Shown one piece after another: positions 39,170-59,011 of a stretch of 64,000 bases of DNA. The stretch comes from Deltaproteobacteria bacterium (GTDB lineage: Bacteria; Desulfobacterota; Syntrophia; Syntrophales; UBA2192). The translations under genes and the position numbers were made by a program. Numbering within the stretch: the stretch's first letter is position 1; every line of letters begins with the position of its first letter. The DNA lies in the NCBI GenBank assembly GCA_012728915.1, contig JAAYEC010000004.1, positions 1 through 64,000 on the forward strand. The letters are read 5' to 3'. Under the pieces are notes generated by a model that ran no database searches, had not been told where the DNA came from, and was given only the letters and a program-made list of their open reading frames with translations.

Positions 39170-39307
39170 GGTTAAAAACGCCTATGGGCAGGGAAAAAGC
39201 GGCTTGCACGCGGCGGACGCCGCCGTCCCGGACGAAAGGCCCGTCGGGCCGCAGGCAAACGGGGGTGAGGCCGGCCCCGGCCCGGTCATCACCGGGGAGC
39301 CCAGGAT

Positions 39308-39407
39308 GTGCGAATGCAGAACGTTGAGTTCAAATATCGCACACAAGCCAAACGCTTTGCCACGGCGCTTCGTCAGAAATTGAACGTTTATTGTGCGATA
39401 ATGGCAC
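39308..39407. promoter_or_regulatory. Cluster of three 15-bp palindromic activator sites upstream of RNA A
   Basis: GTGCGAATGCAGAAC (39308-39322), GTTCAAATATCGCAC (39328-39342, reverse orientation) and GTGCGATAATGGCAC (39393-39407). All fit GTGC-N7-G[CA]AC. The first two start 20 bases apart, two helical turns. They lie about 135-235 bases upstream of the sigma-54 promoter, as expected for enhancer sites. The same motif recurs upstream of RNA B and of the sigma-54 activator gene. Confidence 0.65.
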
Positions 39408-39542
39408 GATTCGGCACCCGCCGTCCCGTTGTGATGTCCGGTGAGGACCGCTCCGGGGGGACCGCTCCCATTTCAATAGCTTGTATTTATTGCCGGATTT
39501 GAGGTCTGGCCTTCCGTTCTTTTCCGTCGAGCCCGCCTGCCG

Positions 39543-39558
39543 TGGCATTGTTATTGCT
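39543..39558 (+). promoter_or_regulatory. Sigma-54 promoter of RNA A
   Basis: TGGCATTGTTATTGCT, with GG and GC 10 bases apart, one mismatch (T for C) from the TGGCAC-N5-TTGC consensus. It differs at a single position from the promoter at 50428-50443. Confidence 0.75.
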
Positions 39559-39568
39559 AATTATACGG

Positions 39569-39890
39569 GCACGGCGCTTGAGGAAATGCCCAAGACCCTG
39601 ACAGACCCCCAAATTTCCTAGCGCTTGCTTTGAAAGAGGACATCCGGTGGATGGTTTTGGTCCCTCCTTTCCATCCACCGATGCCCTTTCAAAAACCCCC
39701 TCTGCCGAAGCAATCCCTGGATGAAAACATGCGGCGCTGCCTGTCCGGCTTGGCGGTCCCCGTGCTCGTGCCGGTCGTACTTTCTTCAGCTGGGCGGTCG
39801 AACCGCGCAATCCCCCGCCGGCCCATGCAGGCCCTCTGATCCGCTTCCCTGGGAAATGAAAAAGCCGGCCCCGCAAGGAGCCGGCTTTTT
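39569..39890 (+). ncRNA. Putative sigma-54-dependent regulatory RNA A
   Basis: Predicted to start about 12 bases past the promoter GC and end at the terminator at 39859-39890, roughly 320 nucleotides. A 5' stem is closed by GCGC/AGGAAAT (39574-39587) with ATTTCCT/GCGC (39613-39624). A long hairpin (39629-39693) has inner stem CGGTGGATGG / CCATCCACCG and the loop TTTTGGTCCCTCCTTT. The hairpin is homologous to that in RNA B with a compensated base pair. The reading frame through it is not conserved between the copies, because the loops differ by two bases. It lies between the divergent acyl-CoA dehydrogenase gene and convergent atoE. Confidence 0.6.
39859..39890. terminator. Bidirectional terminator between RNA A and atoE
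   Basis: AAAAAGCCGGC (39859-39869) pairs with GCCGGCTTTTT (39880-39890), 10-base loop. T tracts on both strands let it end RNA A and atoE. Confidence 0.85.
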
Positions 39891-45727: not shown

Positions 45728-47758
45728 ATGGCAAGAGTGAAGCTGTCGAGAATCCGGAACATCGGGGTCGTCGCCCACATCGACGCGGGGAAGACGACGG
45801 TCACGGAGCGGATTCTCTACTACACGGGCAAGTCCTACAAGATGGGCGAGGTCCACGACGGCGAGGCCGTCATGGACTGGATGCCCCAGGAGCAGGAGCG
45901 GGGGATCACCATCTCTTCCGCCGTGACCACCTGCGACTGGCGCAACCACGAGATCCATATCATCGACACCCCGGGGCACGTGGACTTCACGATCGAGGTC
46001 GAGCGCAGCCTCCGGGTTCTCGACGGCGCCGTCGTGGTCTTCTCCGCCGTGGAGGGCGTGGAGCCGCAGTCTGAGACCGTCTGGCACCAGGCCGACAAGT
46101 ACGGCGTCCCCAAGATTGCCTTCATCAACAAGATGGACCGGGTCGGCGCGGACTTCTCCAACGCCGTGCAGATGATGCGGGAGCGCTTCGCATCCGTGCC
46201 ATTGCCCGTCCAGGCCCCCCTCGGAGAATCCGATCATTTCCGGGGGATCGTCGACCTGGTCCGCATGCGGCTCGTCACGTGGCGGGAGAACACCCTGGGG
46301 GCGGCCCTCGACGTCTCCGAGATCCCGGAGGACATTCGCGCGGAGGCCGAGGCCCGCCGCGAGCGCCTGCTGGAAACGGTCGCCGAGGCCGATGACGGGA
46401 TTGCCGAGAAGTATCTGGCCGAGGAGCCCGTCACGGAGGCCGAGCTGATCCGGGCGATCCGAAAAGCCACCGTCTCCCTCAAAATCGTGCCCGTCCTGTG
46501 CGGGGCGGCGCTTCGCAACAAGGGGGTCCAGCTCATCCTGGATGCCGTCGTCGATTACCTGCCGTCGCCGGAAGACATCCCGCCCGTCAGGGGCGTGAAC
46601 CCCGTCACGAAGGCCCAGGAGGAGCGCCCAGCGAGCGACCGCGCGCCTTTCACGGCGCTTGCCTTCAAGGTTGCCATGATGGAGGGCCGGAAGATCACCT
46701 ACGTGCGCATCTACTCGGGGCTGCTGAAGGCGGGCGACGAGGTCTTCAACGCGACGAAGGGCCGCAGGGAGAAGGTGGCCCGCCTGCTCAAGATGCACGC
46801 CAACAAGCGAGAACGCATGGACGCGGCCGGGGCGGGCGACATCATCGCCGTGGCGGGCCTCAAGGAGGCCCAGACCGGCGACACCCTCTGCAGCGAGTCG
46901 AAGCCCCTGATCCTCGAGTCCATCGAGTTCTACAACCCCGTGATCAGCCAGGCCATCGAGGCCAAGACTCCCGCCGACCAGGAAAAGCTCCCCGACGTGC
47001 TCGCGAAGATCAGCGAGGAGGACCCCACGCTGAAGGTCAAGTACGACGAGGAGACGGCGCAGACGGTCATCTCGGGGATGGGCGAGCTCCACCTCGAGGT
47101 CGTCGTCGACCGGCTCCAGCGGGAATACAACATCCACGTCAACACGGGAAAGCCGAGGGTGGTCTACCGCGAGACCATCCAGAAGGCCGTGGAGGCCGAG
47201 GGCCGCTTCGAGCGGGAACTGGGTGAAAAGAGGCATTTCGGGCACGTCAGGCTCGCCCTCGAACCGCTGGCGAGGGGCGCCGGGGTCGAGATCCGCAACG
47301 AACTGGCTCCCGAGACCGTCCCTGCGGAATTTCACCCCGTCATCGAGGAATCCATCGGAGAGGCCGTGCTGAGCGGCGTCGTGGCGGGATACCCCGTGCT
47401 CGATATCCGGGTCCGGATCACGGGCGGCTCCGTCAAGGAGGGGGAGTCCTCCGCGATCGGCTACAGGATCGCCACGCAGGCCGCCTTCCGGGAAGGCTGT
47501 TCCAAGGCCGACCCCGTTCTCCTGGAGCCGATCATGAGGGTCGACGTCCTGACGCCGAAGGACTTCATGGGCGAGGTCATCGGGGACCTCAATGCACGCA
47601 GGGGCGAGGTCGAATCCGTCAACCCCAAGGGCCCCGTGACGGAGATACGCGCCGATGTCCCCCTCCGGGCGCTCTTCGGGTATTCGACGGATCTCCGGTC
47701 GGCGACCCAGGGCAGGGCGGTGTTCAGCATGCAGTTCCTCCGCTACGACAAGGCATAA
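45728..47758 (+). CDS. fusA: Elongation factor G
   Basis: A 676-residue translational GTPase. G motifs are AHIDAGKTT, the switch II region DTPGHVDF, and NKMD; later domains show [21 protein letters not shown] and the domain IV block [14 protein letters not shown]. It is slightly shorter than typical EF-G (about 690-700) and lies outside any str operon (no rpsL, rpsG or tuf), so it may be the second EF-G (EF-G2 type) of the genome; the complete genome would tell. It is followed by a terminator. Confidence 0.92.
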
Positions 47759-47811: not shown

Positions 47812-47845
47812 AAAGCCCCGGCCGTTACGGCACTGGGGCTTTTTT
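47812..47845 (+). terminator. Intrinsic terminator after fusA
   Basis: AAAGCCCC and GGGGCTTT enclose a small inner hairpin (GCCGTTACGGC), followed by TTTTT. Confidence 0.85.
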
Positions 47846-47920
47846 GTCCGGTACCCGCACGCTCACGACGCTCTTTCTCTGTGTATTCCCGCACCCTGTC
47901 CCTCCGAACCCGCTTTTTAT

Positions 47921-47935
47921 GTGCAAATTCCGCAC
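47921..47935. promoter_or_regulatory. Palindromic activator site upstream of the sigma-54 activator gene
   Basis: GTGCAAATTCCGCAC, a GTGC-N7-GCAC palindrome of the same family as the sites at the two RNA promoters. It ends 8 bases before the -35 box of the activator gene's promoter, which suggests autoregulation. Confidence 0.6.
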
Positions 47936-47943
47936 GGAATCAG

Positions 47944-48099: not shown

Positions 48100-50253
48100 A
48101 TGTCGCGGATCATAGAGCAGGGCGAAACGATCCCAACACCCGTCAGGACATCCTCCGCGTTCAGCACCGACAAGGACAAGCTGATCAAGGGGATTCACCG
48201 GATCAGCGCCTTCCTGACGGCTCCCTCCAGCGTGGAGGACATCCTGGGGAAAATCCTCGACGAGGTCGTCGACTCCATGGGGTTCGACCGGGGGATCATC
48301 CTGCTGCTCGACGAAAGGCGGGAGAACCTCTGCACGCGGGTCGTGAAAAATTACAGCGAGGAGGAAGCCCGGCGGGCCTTCTCGGTGCACTTGAGCCTGA
48401 AGAAACACGACAGTTTCGAGACCCGCGTCGCGAAAACGGGGCACTACATCGCTCTGGAGGACTCCGAGACGGATCCCCGCACGACGGAAACGGACCGCAA
48501 GATTTCCGCTTTCTACAAGCGCGGCTCCACGTTCTACGCGCCCCTGAAGATCGAGGACGACGTCATCGGGATCATCGCGGTCTGGACGAAGGAGAAGTCC
48601 CGCTTTTCCTCAGACGAGATTGACATCCTCCTCACCTTTGCCAACCAGGTGAGCATCGTCATCCACATCACCCGTCTCTTCGAGATCAACCGGGAGAAGA
48701 TCGATCAGCTTCTCAGTCTCCAGGAGGCCGTTTCGGGCCTGAACTCCACCTACTCGATCGAGCGCATCCACGAGATCCTGATCCGCAGCGCCCTGAGAAT
48801 AGGCAAGGCCGAGAAGGCCCTGATCTACTTCCTCGATATCGAGAAGAACCGCGTCTTCATCAACGACGGGGAGCGCGGGTTCATCGACGACGGGAACGAA
48901 TACGGGGACCGGATCGGCAAGACCATCATCCGCAAGGCTCTCGACGGCGATGCCATTACCGTCCGGCAGCGGGAGGACGGGGAAGGGGACGACACCGTGC
49001 CGCTCTACGACGGCTACCCCAGCGAGGTGGCGATCCCTCTCAAGGTGAAAGACCGCTTCAAGGGGGTGCTTCTGCTGGGGAAGAAGGCGGGTGCGTACTC
49101 CCGGGATCAGATCAATGTCCTGGACATCCTCGTCAACAACGCCGCCACGTCCTACGACAGCGCCATCATGCACTCCATGCTGTCCATCGAGGCCAAGTCG
49201 CTCAAGACGGAAGTGGAGAAGCTCAAGGAACGCGAGGACTTCCTCCTGGGCTTCCACAACATCCTCGGCAAGTCGAAGAAGATGGTCGGCATCTTCCACG
49301 TGATCGAGGAGGTGGCCAAGCACGACACCAACATCCTGATCCAAGGGGAGAGCGGCACGGGGAAGGAACTCGTCTCGCGCGCCATACACCGGCAGAGCCA
49401 GCGGCACGAGAAGCGGTTCGTCGACGTCAATTGCGCGGCCATCCCGGGGACACTCCTGGAAAGCGAGCTGTTCGGCTACGAGGCGGGCGCCTTCACCGAC
49501 GCGAGGAAACGCAAGATCGGTCTGCTGGAATACGCCAGCGGGGGCACGCTGTTTCTCGACGAGATCGGCGACATGAGCCTGCCGCTGCAGGCAAAGTTCC
49601 TGCGGATGCTCGAAGACGGCCACATCCGCCGCCTCGGCGGCAACGAGTCCATCCCCGTCGACGTGCGGTTCATTTTCGCCACGAACCGGGACCTGTCGAG
49701 GATGGTCTCGGAAGGATCCTTCCGGGAGGATCTCTACTACCGCATCAGTGTCGTGCCGATCATTCTGCCGCCGCTGCGCGAGCGGGGCGACGACCTCCTG
49801 CTGCTGGCCCGCAACTATGTGGACGAGTTCAATCGGAAGTTCAACAAGAAGGTCAAGGGGTTCACGAAGGAGGCGGAGGAGATCCTGCGCCGTTACTCCT
49901 GGCCCGGAAATGTCCGCGAACTCAAGAACATCATCGAGCGGGTCATGATCCTTCGCGACGTGGGCCGGTTCATCACGCCGGAGAACATCCCCGCCGAGAT
50001 CAAGGCGTCGGCGGCGCAGGAGCCCGTCGTTCAGGTCGACGAGCTGCTCCCGCTCACCTCGGAGACGGACCGGATTGACTACAGGCTGGCCGTTGAAAAG
50101 CTCACGGGAAAGATCAAGGAGCGCATCCTCACGCGGGCCCTGAAACTGAGCGGGGGAAACAGGACAAAGGCGGCACGGCTGCTGAACATTTCCCGATACG
50201 CGCTCATCCGGGAACTCAAGAAGGTGGGAAAGAGTGCCGAATCGGGCACTTAG
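48100..50253 (+). CDS. Sigma-54-dependent activator, GAF-GAF-AAA-Fis
   Basis: A 717-residue enhancer-binding protein. GAF domains are at about 45-190 and 215-360. The AAA+ domain (395-630) has Walker A GESGTGKE (416-423), Walker B GTLFLDEIGD and the sigma-54-contacting loop at 463-468, which reads GAFTDA rather than the canonical GAFTGA. The Fis-type helix-turn-helix is at 686-708 (NRTKAARLLNISRYALIREL). There is no receiver domain, so it senses ligands or redox through GAF, like FhlA or NifA types. A palindrome upstream of its promoter and sites next to two sigma-54 RNA promoters suggest what it controls. Its start lacks a strong ribosome site. Confidence 0.9.
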   Translation: MSRIIEQGETIPTPVRTSSAFSTDKDKLIKGIHRISAFLTAPSSVEDILGKILDEVVDSMGFDRGIILLLDERRENLCTRVVKNYSEEEARRAFSVHLSLKKHDSFETRVAKTGHYIALEDSETDPRTTETDRKISAFYKRGSTFYAPLKIEDDVIGIIAVWTKEKSRFSSDEIDILLTFANQVSIVIHITRLFEINREKIDQLLSLQEAVSGLNSTYSIERIHEILIRSALRIGKAEKALIYFLDIEKNRVFINDGERGFIDDGNEYGDRIGKTIIRKALDGDAITVRQREDGEGDDTVPLYDGYPSEVAIPLKVKDRFKGVLLLGKKAGAYSRDQINVLDILVNNAATSYDSAIMHSMLSIEAKSLKTEVEKLKEREDFLLGFHNILGKSKKMVGIFHVIEEVAKHDTNILIQGESGTGKELVSRAIHRQSQRHEKRFVDVNCAAIPGTLLESELFGYEAGAFTDARKRKIGLLEYASGGTLFLDEIGDMSLPLQAKFLRMLEDGHIRRLGGNESIPVDVRFIFATNRDLSRMVSEGSFREDLYYRISVVPIILPPLRERGDDLLLLARNYVDEFNRKFNKKVKGFTKEAEEILRRYSWPGNVRELKNIIERVMILRDVGRFITPENIPAEIKASAAQEPVVQVDELLPLTSETDRIDYRLAVEKLTGKIKERILTRALKLSGGNRTKAARLLNISRYALIRELKKVGKSAESGT

Positions 50254-50362
50254 GCAAACCGTGCAGGAATTGAACAATGTGTGCGAATGTAGAACATTCC
50301 GGGAAACCGCGAAAACCGGGACTTGCTGCGCTGCCGCCCTCCTTGCTGTGCTGATTTCGCAC
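50234..50362. promoter_or_regulatory. Cluster of palindromic activator sites upstream of RNA B
   Basis: GTGCCGAATCGGGCAC (50234-50249, N8 spacer, overlapping the end of the activator gene), GTGCAGGAATTGAAC (50261-50275), GTGCGAATGTAGAAC (50281-50295) and GTGCTGATTTCGCAC (50348-50362). The second and third start 20 bases apart, just like the first pair upstream of RNA A. GTGCGAATGTAGAAC differs at one base from the first RNA A site. Confidence 0.65.
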
Positions 50363-50427
50363 GGCACAGGGGTCCTCGATGGCCTCCCCTTCTTTATAAT
50401 ATGCCGTAATCATTGATATATTTGTTT

Positions 50428-50443
50428 TGGCACTGTTATTGCT
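50428..50443 (+). promoter_or_regulatory. Sigma-54 promoter of RNA B
   Basis: TGGCACTGTTATTGCT, a perfect match to TGGCAC-N5-TTGC[AT]. It lies 175 bases after the stop of the sigma-54 activator gene. Confidence 0.85.
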
Positions 50444-50453
50444 CAGTTACCAG

Positions 50454-50718
50454 TGCGAGACCTTCGGATGACTGACCTTTAACATAAAGAGAGATAAGGA
50501 ATTTATCGAATAGGAAAGGTAGATCCTCTCTGAAGGTCTCACAAAACAGACACCCCTCAATAATGATCGTGCTTTAGGTTTGCGAATCGGCGGATGGTTT
50601 TTGGTTCCCTCCTTTCCATCCGCCGACCCCCTGACAGAAAAGGGAGGGGGTTGGGGAACAGCCTCTCTTTTACCATAGAATTGGTGGATGAGCCGTCCGT
50701 CATCCACCAATTTTTTTT
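50454..50718 (+). ncRNA. Putative sigma-54-dependent regulatory RNA B
   Basis: About 265 nucleotides from the predicted start to a strong terminator. The 5' domain is closed by GAGACCTTC (50457-50465) with GAAGGTCTC (50532-50540) and contains small AGGA-loop hairpins such as GATAA-GGAAT-TTATC. The second hairpin (50588-50625) has stem CGGCGGATGG / CCATCCGCCG and loop TTTTTGGTTCCCTCCTTT, homologous to RNA A. Stem position 4 is C-G here and T-A in RNA A, a compensatory change. No conserved open frame spans it. The loop would pair with Shine-Dalgarno sequences. Confidence 0.65.
50679..50718 (+). terminator. Terminator of RNA B
   Basis: A 13-bp perfect stem (AATTGGTGGATGA 50679-50691 with TCATCCACCAATT 50700-50712), followed by a run of eight T. 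Confidence 0.92.
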
Positions 50719-50910
50719 GTTCAACGTCCGGCGCTGACAATCGGCTTTGCAGAGAACCATCCGAGATGGGATTCCGCGGCGGGGCCTCTGGAATCTTTCT
50801 TCCCATCTTAGAAGCTGTCAGCGAAGAATCAAAGAAAGGTCCATGGCCTGCCGGCCGGTCAGAAGGACCAGATGCAAGGCGCCGTCTCAGGCAGAGGGGA
50901 AGAAGGTTTG

Positions 50911-50995
50911 ACGGTGAGAAGGTTGGGGAAGCAGGGGGCATGATGCTTGCCACCGACTCATCCAACGTTCTTACCCTCTCGCCTTCTTACATTCT
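50911..50995 (+). repeat. Dispersed intergenic repeat, copy 1
   Basis: A degenerate unit with a GAGAAGG arm, a GGGGGCAT core and CATCCAACGTTCTTACC followed by a C/T-rich arm that pairs with the GAGAAGG arm. Related copies are at 52018-52100 and, inverted, at 60385-60478. Confidence 0.55.
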
Positions 50996-51028
50996 CTGGC
51001 CGGGGGGATGCACCCCCGTCGCCAGCCT

Positions 51029-51916: not shown

Positions 51917-52017
51917 CATGCTCCTCATTCACAAACGGCAAGTGCCTCTTCAGGCCAGTAACCGGCGGCACGCAGGAAGGCAGCCGGTAAAGGACAGGGG
52001 GTTAGAGGGTCCGAAGG

Positions 52018-52100
52018 TGTGACGGTTCGAGAAGCGGGGAGCATGAAATTGTCCGCTGACGGATCCAACGTTCTTGCCTTCTCACCCTCTCACCTTCCTG
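52018..52100 (+). repeat. Dispersed intergenic repeat, copy 2
   Basis: Related to 50911-50995: GACGG, CGAGAAG, GGGGAGCATGAAA, then GATCCAACGTTCTTGCC and TTCTCACC. Confidence 0.55.
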
Positions 52101-52235: not shown

Positions 52236-52451
52236 CTACTTCTTGGCCGGTGCTGCCGGGGCCGGAGCCGGAGCCGCGGGTGCCGGGGCCGGAGCTGCTG
52301 CCTTTTCGGGAGCCTTCTCGGGTGCCGGAGCGGGTGCCGGAGCGGGTGCCGGAGCGGGCGCGGGCTTCTTCTCCTCTTGCTTAGCGCAGCCTACAAACGA
52401 GAAAGAAACGGCGAGCAAAAGGGCGAGGACCAGTGCGAATGCCTTCTTCAT
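52236..52451 (-). CDS. Small Ala/Pro-rich lipoprotein
   Basis: A 71-residue lipoprotein: a signal peptide with lipobox SFVGC (Cys near residue 22), a charged KQEEKK stretch, then an almost pure Ala-Pro repeat with two EKAPEKA insertions and a Lys tail. It would be a lipid-anchored flexible rod, like periplasmic spacer lipoproteins; function unknown. AGGAGGTG lies 9 bases before the ATG at 52451. It has its own terminator. Confidence 0.75.
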   Translation of the reverse strand: MKKAFALVLALLLAVSFSFVGCAKQEEKKPAPAPAPAPAPAPAPEKAPEKAAAPAPAPAAPAPAPAAPAKK

Positions 52452-58936: not shown

Positions 58937-59011
58937 TGGCTGGGGCGGAAGGATTCGAACCTCCGAATGCGGGAGCCAAAGTCCCGTGGCTTACCGCTTG
59001 CCGACGCCCCA
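58937..59011 (-). tRNA. tRNA-Gln (anticodon TTG)
   Basis: On the minus strand a full cloverleaf: acceptor TGGGGCG / CGCCCCA, D arm, anticodon loop ACTTTGG with anticodon TTG, T loop GGTTCGAATCC, and an encoded GCCA end (58937-58940). It sits between ispE and prs, the usual place for a tRNA-Gln in many bacteria. Confidence 0.95.

Follow-up and report, generated by a model that had tools for sequence, protein, structure and literature searches.

A predicted sigma-54-dependent RNA with an anti-Shine-Dalgarno-type hairpin located behind a sigma-54 activator gene in Syntrophales

The 64,000-nucleotide stretch of bacterial DNA analysed here (hereafter the window) carries a sigma-54 RNA gene directly behind the gene for a sigma-54 activator. 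This observation, originally made in a first-pass annotation of the DNA, is confirmed, although transcription itself has not been shown. The predicted RNA is approximately 265 nucleotides long (50454 to 50718, + strand), as judged from the position of its promoter, its terminator, a block of conservation in five species and a folding z-score of -4.69, and it is a member of an undescribed RNA family. Missing from the first-pass annotation were an anti-Shine-Dalgarno (aSD)-type hairpin as the functional core of the RNA, a second RNA at 39.5 kb, and a small open reading frame (ORF) in the transcripts of relatives.

The promoter, TGGCACTGTTATTGCT (50428 to 50443, + strand), agrees with the sigma-54 consensus at 11/11 scored positions and recurs throughout the order. 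Its earlier description as a perfect -24/-12 element is borne out, in that the consensus TTGGCACNNNNNTTGCW has one match in 64 kb (50427 to 50443, + strand; element TTGGCACTGTTATTGCT) and none in 100 dinucleotide shuffles. Among five species of the genus (loci L001 and L003 to L006), the conserved block extends from the promoter through the T-run, and both flanks collapse. At its start-side edge, the promoter is followed by GAGACC just past the start point, and the approximately 10 bases that separate promoter and start point vary among the five species. The terminator (50677 to 50718, + strand), previously given a 13-bp stem, is a 15-pair stem-loop (50677 to 50714) followed by T residues to 50718, and it is conserved in the genus. 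Because a loose terminator scan of the region shows no excess (3 found versus 4.8 expected), this assignment rests on stem length and conservation. A chance pairing of promoter and terminator was rejected on the basis of promoter uniqueness, five-species conservation and the order-wide upstream sites.

The window RNA folds with a predicted free energy of -96.3 kcal/mol (z -4.69), a value that none of 200 shuffled sequences equalled. No credible open frame was found inside the window transcript, and a coding region was rejected because the frames that cross the hairpin have different ends in sister species. The claim of a structured non-coding stretch thus stands for the window RNA, but it does not extend to most other families, whose transcripts carry a conserved small ORF before the hairpins. 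A conserved coding frame in relatives had been named as grounds for refutation; because the relatives' small ORF is absent from the window RNA, those grounds are not met here. A 5' structured domain (50457 to 50540, + strand), supported by alignment and covariation, consists of a helix P1, GAGACCTT/AAGGTCTC, enclosing ACCTTT/AAAGGT. This shared domain (GAGACC...ACCTTT...AAAGGT...GGTCTC) is present in the window genus and two further families, amounting to 13 of the 108 genomes of the order. The Rfam search that the first-pass annotation had proposed for the RNA region was conducted with Rfam 15 on the window at gathering cut-offs, and no covariance model matches the RNA. Searches of 12 and 7 related loci with permissive E-value limits likewise gave nothing near cut-off on the RNA strand of the element. 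The sole Rfam match in the window is a tRNA gene (58940 to 59011, - strand).

DNA searches of relatives recover the whole RNA within the genus and a 40-nt core in half of the order. This core is a hairpin of the form T/C-GGYGGRTGG-loop-CCAYCCRCCG-A, with an 18-nt loop ending CCCTCCTTT. The window representative (50587 to 50626, + strand; covariance model R1, 67.8 bits) has an 11-bp stem and the loop TTTTTGGTTCCCTCCTTT, in which resides the aSD motif CCCUCCUUU (50607 to 50615, + strand), the site of the sole exact TTCCCTCCTTT in the window. Across 41 hairpins, CCTCC and TT of the loop are nearly or fully invariant, and the 5' half of the loop varies. The motif resembles the aSD tail CACCUCCUUU known for 16S rRNA, the tail not having been read in these genomes. 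Covariation supports the stem, with 96.9% of cells paired and both sides changed in 47 cells, far in excess of shuffled and slid controls.

A covariance model of the hairpin finds representatives in 63 of the 108 Syntrophales genomes, which cover 36 of the order's 45 genera. Outside this order, only two hits were obtained among approximately 190 other genomes (from a phylum sample of 197 genomes drawn over the phylum), both near E 5e-4 and at chance level. A pattern scan of 84,980 species yielded 69 stretches. Almost all of them come from Syntrophales, Syntrophaceae or 'Deltaproteobacteria' MAGs, and the few single matches from other groups look like chance. Usually one or two copies of the hairpin occur per RNA; paired copies lie approximately 95 nt apart, and the second is often the terminator. 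The 3' module aligns as three hairpins, namely aSD hairpin 1, a linker helix CTGAGAGG/CCTTTCAG, and aSD hairpin 2 (terminator), and 14 of the 28 pairs show double changes. In the window, a linker hairpin AAAAGGGAGG/CCTCTCTTTT (50638 to 50671, + strand) occupies the position of the order-wide helix, and the terminator corresponds in the alignment to the relatives' second aSD hairpin, its stem GGTGGATGA/TCATCCACC kept and its aSD loop replaced by GCCGTCCG.

By sequence, the locus fits the definition of a sigma-54-dependent transcript as one with a -24/-12 promoter and upstream activator sites. Of 69 independent upstream regions, 60 have a sigma-54 site of 9/11 or better no farther than 500 nt from the first hairpin, versus 1.85 in shuffles; the corresponding values for at least 10/11 are 46 and 0.2. 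Several hairpin loci among the 69 regions scanned have no site of at least 9/11. A dyad search located two putative enhancers in front of the window promoter, TGTGCGAATGTAGAACA (50280 to 50296) and TGTGCTGATTTCGCACG (50347 to 50363), each matching TGTGCG-N5-CGCACA at 10/12 positions. Such dyads, at a threshold of at least 9/12, occur in 59/59 promoter-upstream regions tested, with 155 sites in total (shuffles: mean 5.95, largest 11), and are often arranged in threes, near -268, -248 and -180. Elsewhere in the genome there is no copy of an extended motif that the two window loci share at 39307 and 50280. The whole-genome count of TGTGCG-N5-CGCACA with 2 mismatches equals the control (46 versus 45), and therefore the dyad by itself is not enough to define the regulon.

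The activator gene (48100 to 50253, + strand) encodes a 717-aa GAF-GAF-AAA-Fis protein with two GAF regions, an AAA+ domain, a lid and a Fis-type HTH. Pfam matches to Sigma54_activat (E 6.7e-70), GAF_2 and HTH_8 uphold its original identification as a GAF-AAA-Fis activator, and no named NCBIfam equivalog reaches its cut-off on the protein. Across the order, the orthologue is normally located directly upstream of the hairpin RNA on the same strand. At E<=1e-150, orthologues were detected in 55 genomes, 55/55 of which are hairpin-positive, and in none of 45 hairpin-negative genomes; eight hairpin-positive genomes lack one at this threshold, two of them with borderline hairpin scores. The proposed coupling of the RNA gene to the activator is strongly supported, as orthologous activator, dyads, promoter and structured RNA are found in combination across the order. 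That the Fis-type domain of the activator binds the dyads is an inference.

Two further dyads (47845 to 47861 and 47920 to 47936) are located upstream of the activator gene and are partly kept in the genus. Autoregulation through these sites was considered and is unsupported beyond the genus, because only 6 of 35 activator genes have upstream dyads, versus 2.9 expected and a largest shuffle of 7. An in-frame TGA in two activator orthologues proved to be the terminal stop. In genome G041, the activator (L216, G041:C1:1968500-1971800) ends near residue 521 of the query beside a transposase-like ORF and seems interrupted; the RNA locus of this genome (L219) is intact, with FFL ORF (described below) and both hairpins. 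The neighbourhood conserved across the order comprises an EF-G-like gene and the activator, with ychF, hppA and pth downstream on the opposite strand; in the window, the EF-G-like gene (45728 to 47758) lies directly upstream of the activator. Similar intergenic stretches at 50880 to 51000 and 51990 to 52100 (GAAGGT..GACGGT..GGGAGCATGA..TCCAACGTTCTT..CCTTC) flank a patatin-like gene and resemble a dispersed repeat. A small lipoprotein-like ORF (52236 to 52450, - strand) contains an extended Ala-Pro repeat and is accompanied by a terminator-like hairpin of its own.

The locus of a second predicted RNA of this type, promoter included, lies at 39543 to 39890, 10.9 kb from the window RNA, and is kept in four species of the genus. 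Its putative sigma-54 promoter, TGGCATTGTTATTGCT (39543 to 39558, + strand), matches the consensus at 10/11 positions, and the dyad search located three enhancer dyads upstream (39307 to 39323, 39327 to 39343 and 39392 to 39408). The aSD hairpin (39645 to 39680, + strand; model R1, 54.6 bits, E 5.4e-11) and the terminator (39859 to 39890, + strand) are conserved in the four species. A short frame after this hairpin (RRCLSNPAIL...) is present in 3/4 species.

In most other families, an ORF of approximately 60 to 85 codons resides between the promoter and hairpin 1. Its product carries the motif [EY]x[DEN]FF[LIV][STAP] at mid-protein and FFL[SP][DEK] near the C-terminus. This FFL ORF is most likely translated and selected as a protein, because dN/dS is 0.13 to 0.48 in 16 of the 17 pairs with a finite value; the remaining pair, a very close one, gives 1.4 on seven differences. 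An SD-like tetramer precedes only 4 of 33 FFL ORF starts, and neither Pfam nor NCBIfam contains a family for the small proteins. The window genus and loci L010 and L030 have the RNA part only, without the FFL ORF.

We propose that the locus is a module of Syntrophales in which one activator drives its own RNA. The GAF-AAA-Fis protein would sense a signal, bind TGTGCG-N5-CGCACA dyads approximately 80 to 270 bp upstream, and drive sigma-54 transcription of the approximately 265-nt RNA and of the second RNA 10.9 kb away. A rigid hairpin loop of the RNA would present CCCUCCUUU as a mimic of the 16S rRNA 3' tail. Without the help of Hfq, this loop might pair in trans with strong Shine-Dalgarno sequences (AAAGGAGGG...) on other mRNAs, whose translation would thereby be blocked. 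In most relatives, the same transcript would also encode the small FFL-motif protein, whose ORF would escape the block because its own start has no Shine-Dalgarno sequence; the window genus would have lost this ORF and kept the RNA part. Whereas the gene, promoter, enhancers, hairpins, activator coupling and protein-level ORF selection in relatives are established at the level of nucleotide and protein comparisons, transcription, activator-dyad binding, pairing, repression, targets and signal are inferred. With these reservations, trans-acting repression at Shine-Dalgarno sequences is the most likely mechanism, and one in which we place somewhat better than even confidence.

Our preference is based on a precedent, on the lack of a detected Hfq, and on suggestive matches in potential targets. 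The aSD loops of NfeR1, an alpha-r14 RNA, silence ntrB translation independently of Hfq (PMC10746234). Hfq was not found in 14 genomes of the order, including G000, in searches that detected the controls. The motif CCCUCCUUU is complementary to strong Shine-Dalgarno sequences, and across five genomes of the genus its complement AAAGGAGGGAA was counted 38 times, versus 15 for a reversed control. Approximately one match per genome is the antisense of the RNA itself, and Shine-Dalgarno sequences are enriched in genomes anyway, which weakens this evidence. Several matches lie 13 to 16 nt before the start codons of CoA-transferases in G004, G005 and G006, whose leaders carry AAAGGAGGGAAC(C); others precede a formamidase-like gene in G004 and G006 and a sodium/solute symporter in G000. 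These gene names were read by eye from the sequences, not by family search. In the window's own genome, no Shine-Dalgarno complement of at least 11 bases was seen at a CoA-transferase start. Target complementarity is therefore weak evidence and may be taken as suggestive only.

Alternatively, the CCCUCCUUU loop might mimic the 16S 3' end as a decoy that titrates a protein binding there (S1, or a maturation or hibernation factor), and would thus act on ribosome biogenesis or activity and not on single mRNAs. The extreme conservation of the loop though its 5' half varies, the common occurrence of two equal hairpin copies, and the EF-G-like neighbour upstream in a conserved gene order are compatible with this possibility. 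However, no partner has been identified, the hairpin lacks the AUCA part of the 16S Era site, and the alpha-r14 precedent works through base pairing. We consider a decoy function improbable. A role in cis is equally difficult to favour: as 3'-UTR elements, the hairpins would stabilise or terminate a sigma-54 mRNA that encodes the FFL protein, and the copy in the window would be a decayed remnant. The selected small ORF before the hairpins in many families and the use of the second hairpin as terminator agree with such a role, but promoter, dyads and hairpin are intact in the window genus, L010 and L030 without the ORF, and a plain stability stem would not need the invariant CCCUCCUU loop.

Titration of CsrA or Crc by an RNA of the RsmY/CrcZ type is disfavoured and seems very unlikely. 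Sigma-54 control beside an activator, as in CbrB/CrcZ, and a GGA in a predicted loop at 50498 would fit this function, but neither RNA has an AAYAAYAA motif, most sister species have AGA in place of the loop GGA, and the same 14 genomes gave no Hfq. Trans-acting repression remains the preferred reading, and a bolder version of it is conceivable but doubtful. In this version, a sigma-54 regulon of mRNAs without Shine-Dalgarno sequences would combine a disordered double-FFL microprotein with ribosome-tail-mimic hairpins that shut Shine-Dalgarno-dependent translation while the ORF itself escapes, with an RNA-only form in the window genus. If true, the system would be a dual-function translation switch.

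Known RNAs resemble the window RNA in individual respects. The closest layout is that of Pxr of Myxococcus (PMC5568312), where the gene for the sigma-54-dependent regulator Nla19 precedes that of a stem-loop sRNA, which apparently has a sigma-54 promoter to itself and has paralogues. However, Nla19 is a response regulator and not a GAF-AAA-Fis protein, the bacterial group is different, Pxr has three stem-loops that differ in sequence (with CCCCCCACCCC rather than CCCUCCUUU implied by the published probe), and no small ORF is described for it (PMC5568312). The window RNA does not qualify as a Pxr, given that its upstream gene is not a response regulator and there is no Rfam match; the Pxr sequence was not aligned directly. 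The closest working part is that of the alpha-r14/NfeR1/cuckoo RNAs of Alphaproteobacteria (PMC10746234), which have several hairpins with variable stems and an ultraconserved aSD motif in an unpaired loop, and include the Hfq-independent NfeR1, as proposed for the window RNA. The criterion of an aSD-type motif in the hairpin loop(s) is met, but the alpha-r14 motif is CCUCCUCCC, which is absent from the window RNA, and there is no sequence match; these RNAs also have a sigma-70 promoter and no adjacent sigma-54 activator, and are not reported to carry a small ORF (PMC10746234).

CbrB/CrcZ of Pseudomonas and LuxO/Qrr of Vibrio are similar in kind, with an enhancer-binding protein that drives one to several copies of sigma-54 sRNAs. 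The first-pass annotation judged the window RNA unlike these, and this assessment holds. CrcZ acts through CA motifs on Hfq/Crc, whereas the window RNA lacks AAYAAYAA and Hfq was not found; Qrr pairs with Hfq, and its core was not detected by Rfam. GlmY of Enterobacterales is encoded next to the two-component locus qseEGF, and QseF binds the sRNA promoter; in contrast, QseF is a member of a two-component system (PMC8745638), GlmY acts via RapZ (PMC7073468), and there are no aSD hairpins. By the features tested, the window RNA belongs to none of Pxr, alpha-r14, CrcZ and Qrr. The open-licence papers searched gave no description of a system that unites a GAF activator, dedicated enhancer arrays, aSD hairpins and an optional microprotein; the subscription literature could mention one.

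No regulatory RNA in syntrophic anaerobes turned up in the open-licence literature searched, and the present finding adds an order-wide family to these organisms. Because the activator, the DNA site and the RNA are all defined by sequence, the signal, the regulon and the mechanism are directly testable. The family would show that the anti-Shine-Dalgarno hairpin strategy has arisen a second time, independently, outside Alphaproteobacteria and in genomes without a detected Hfq.
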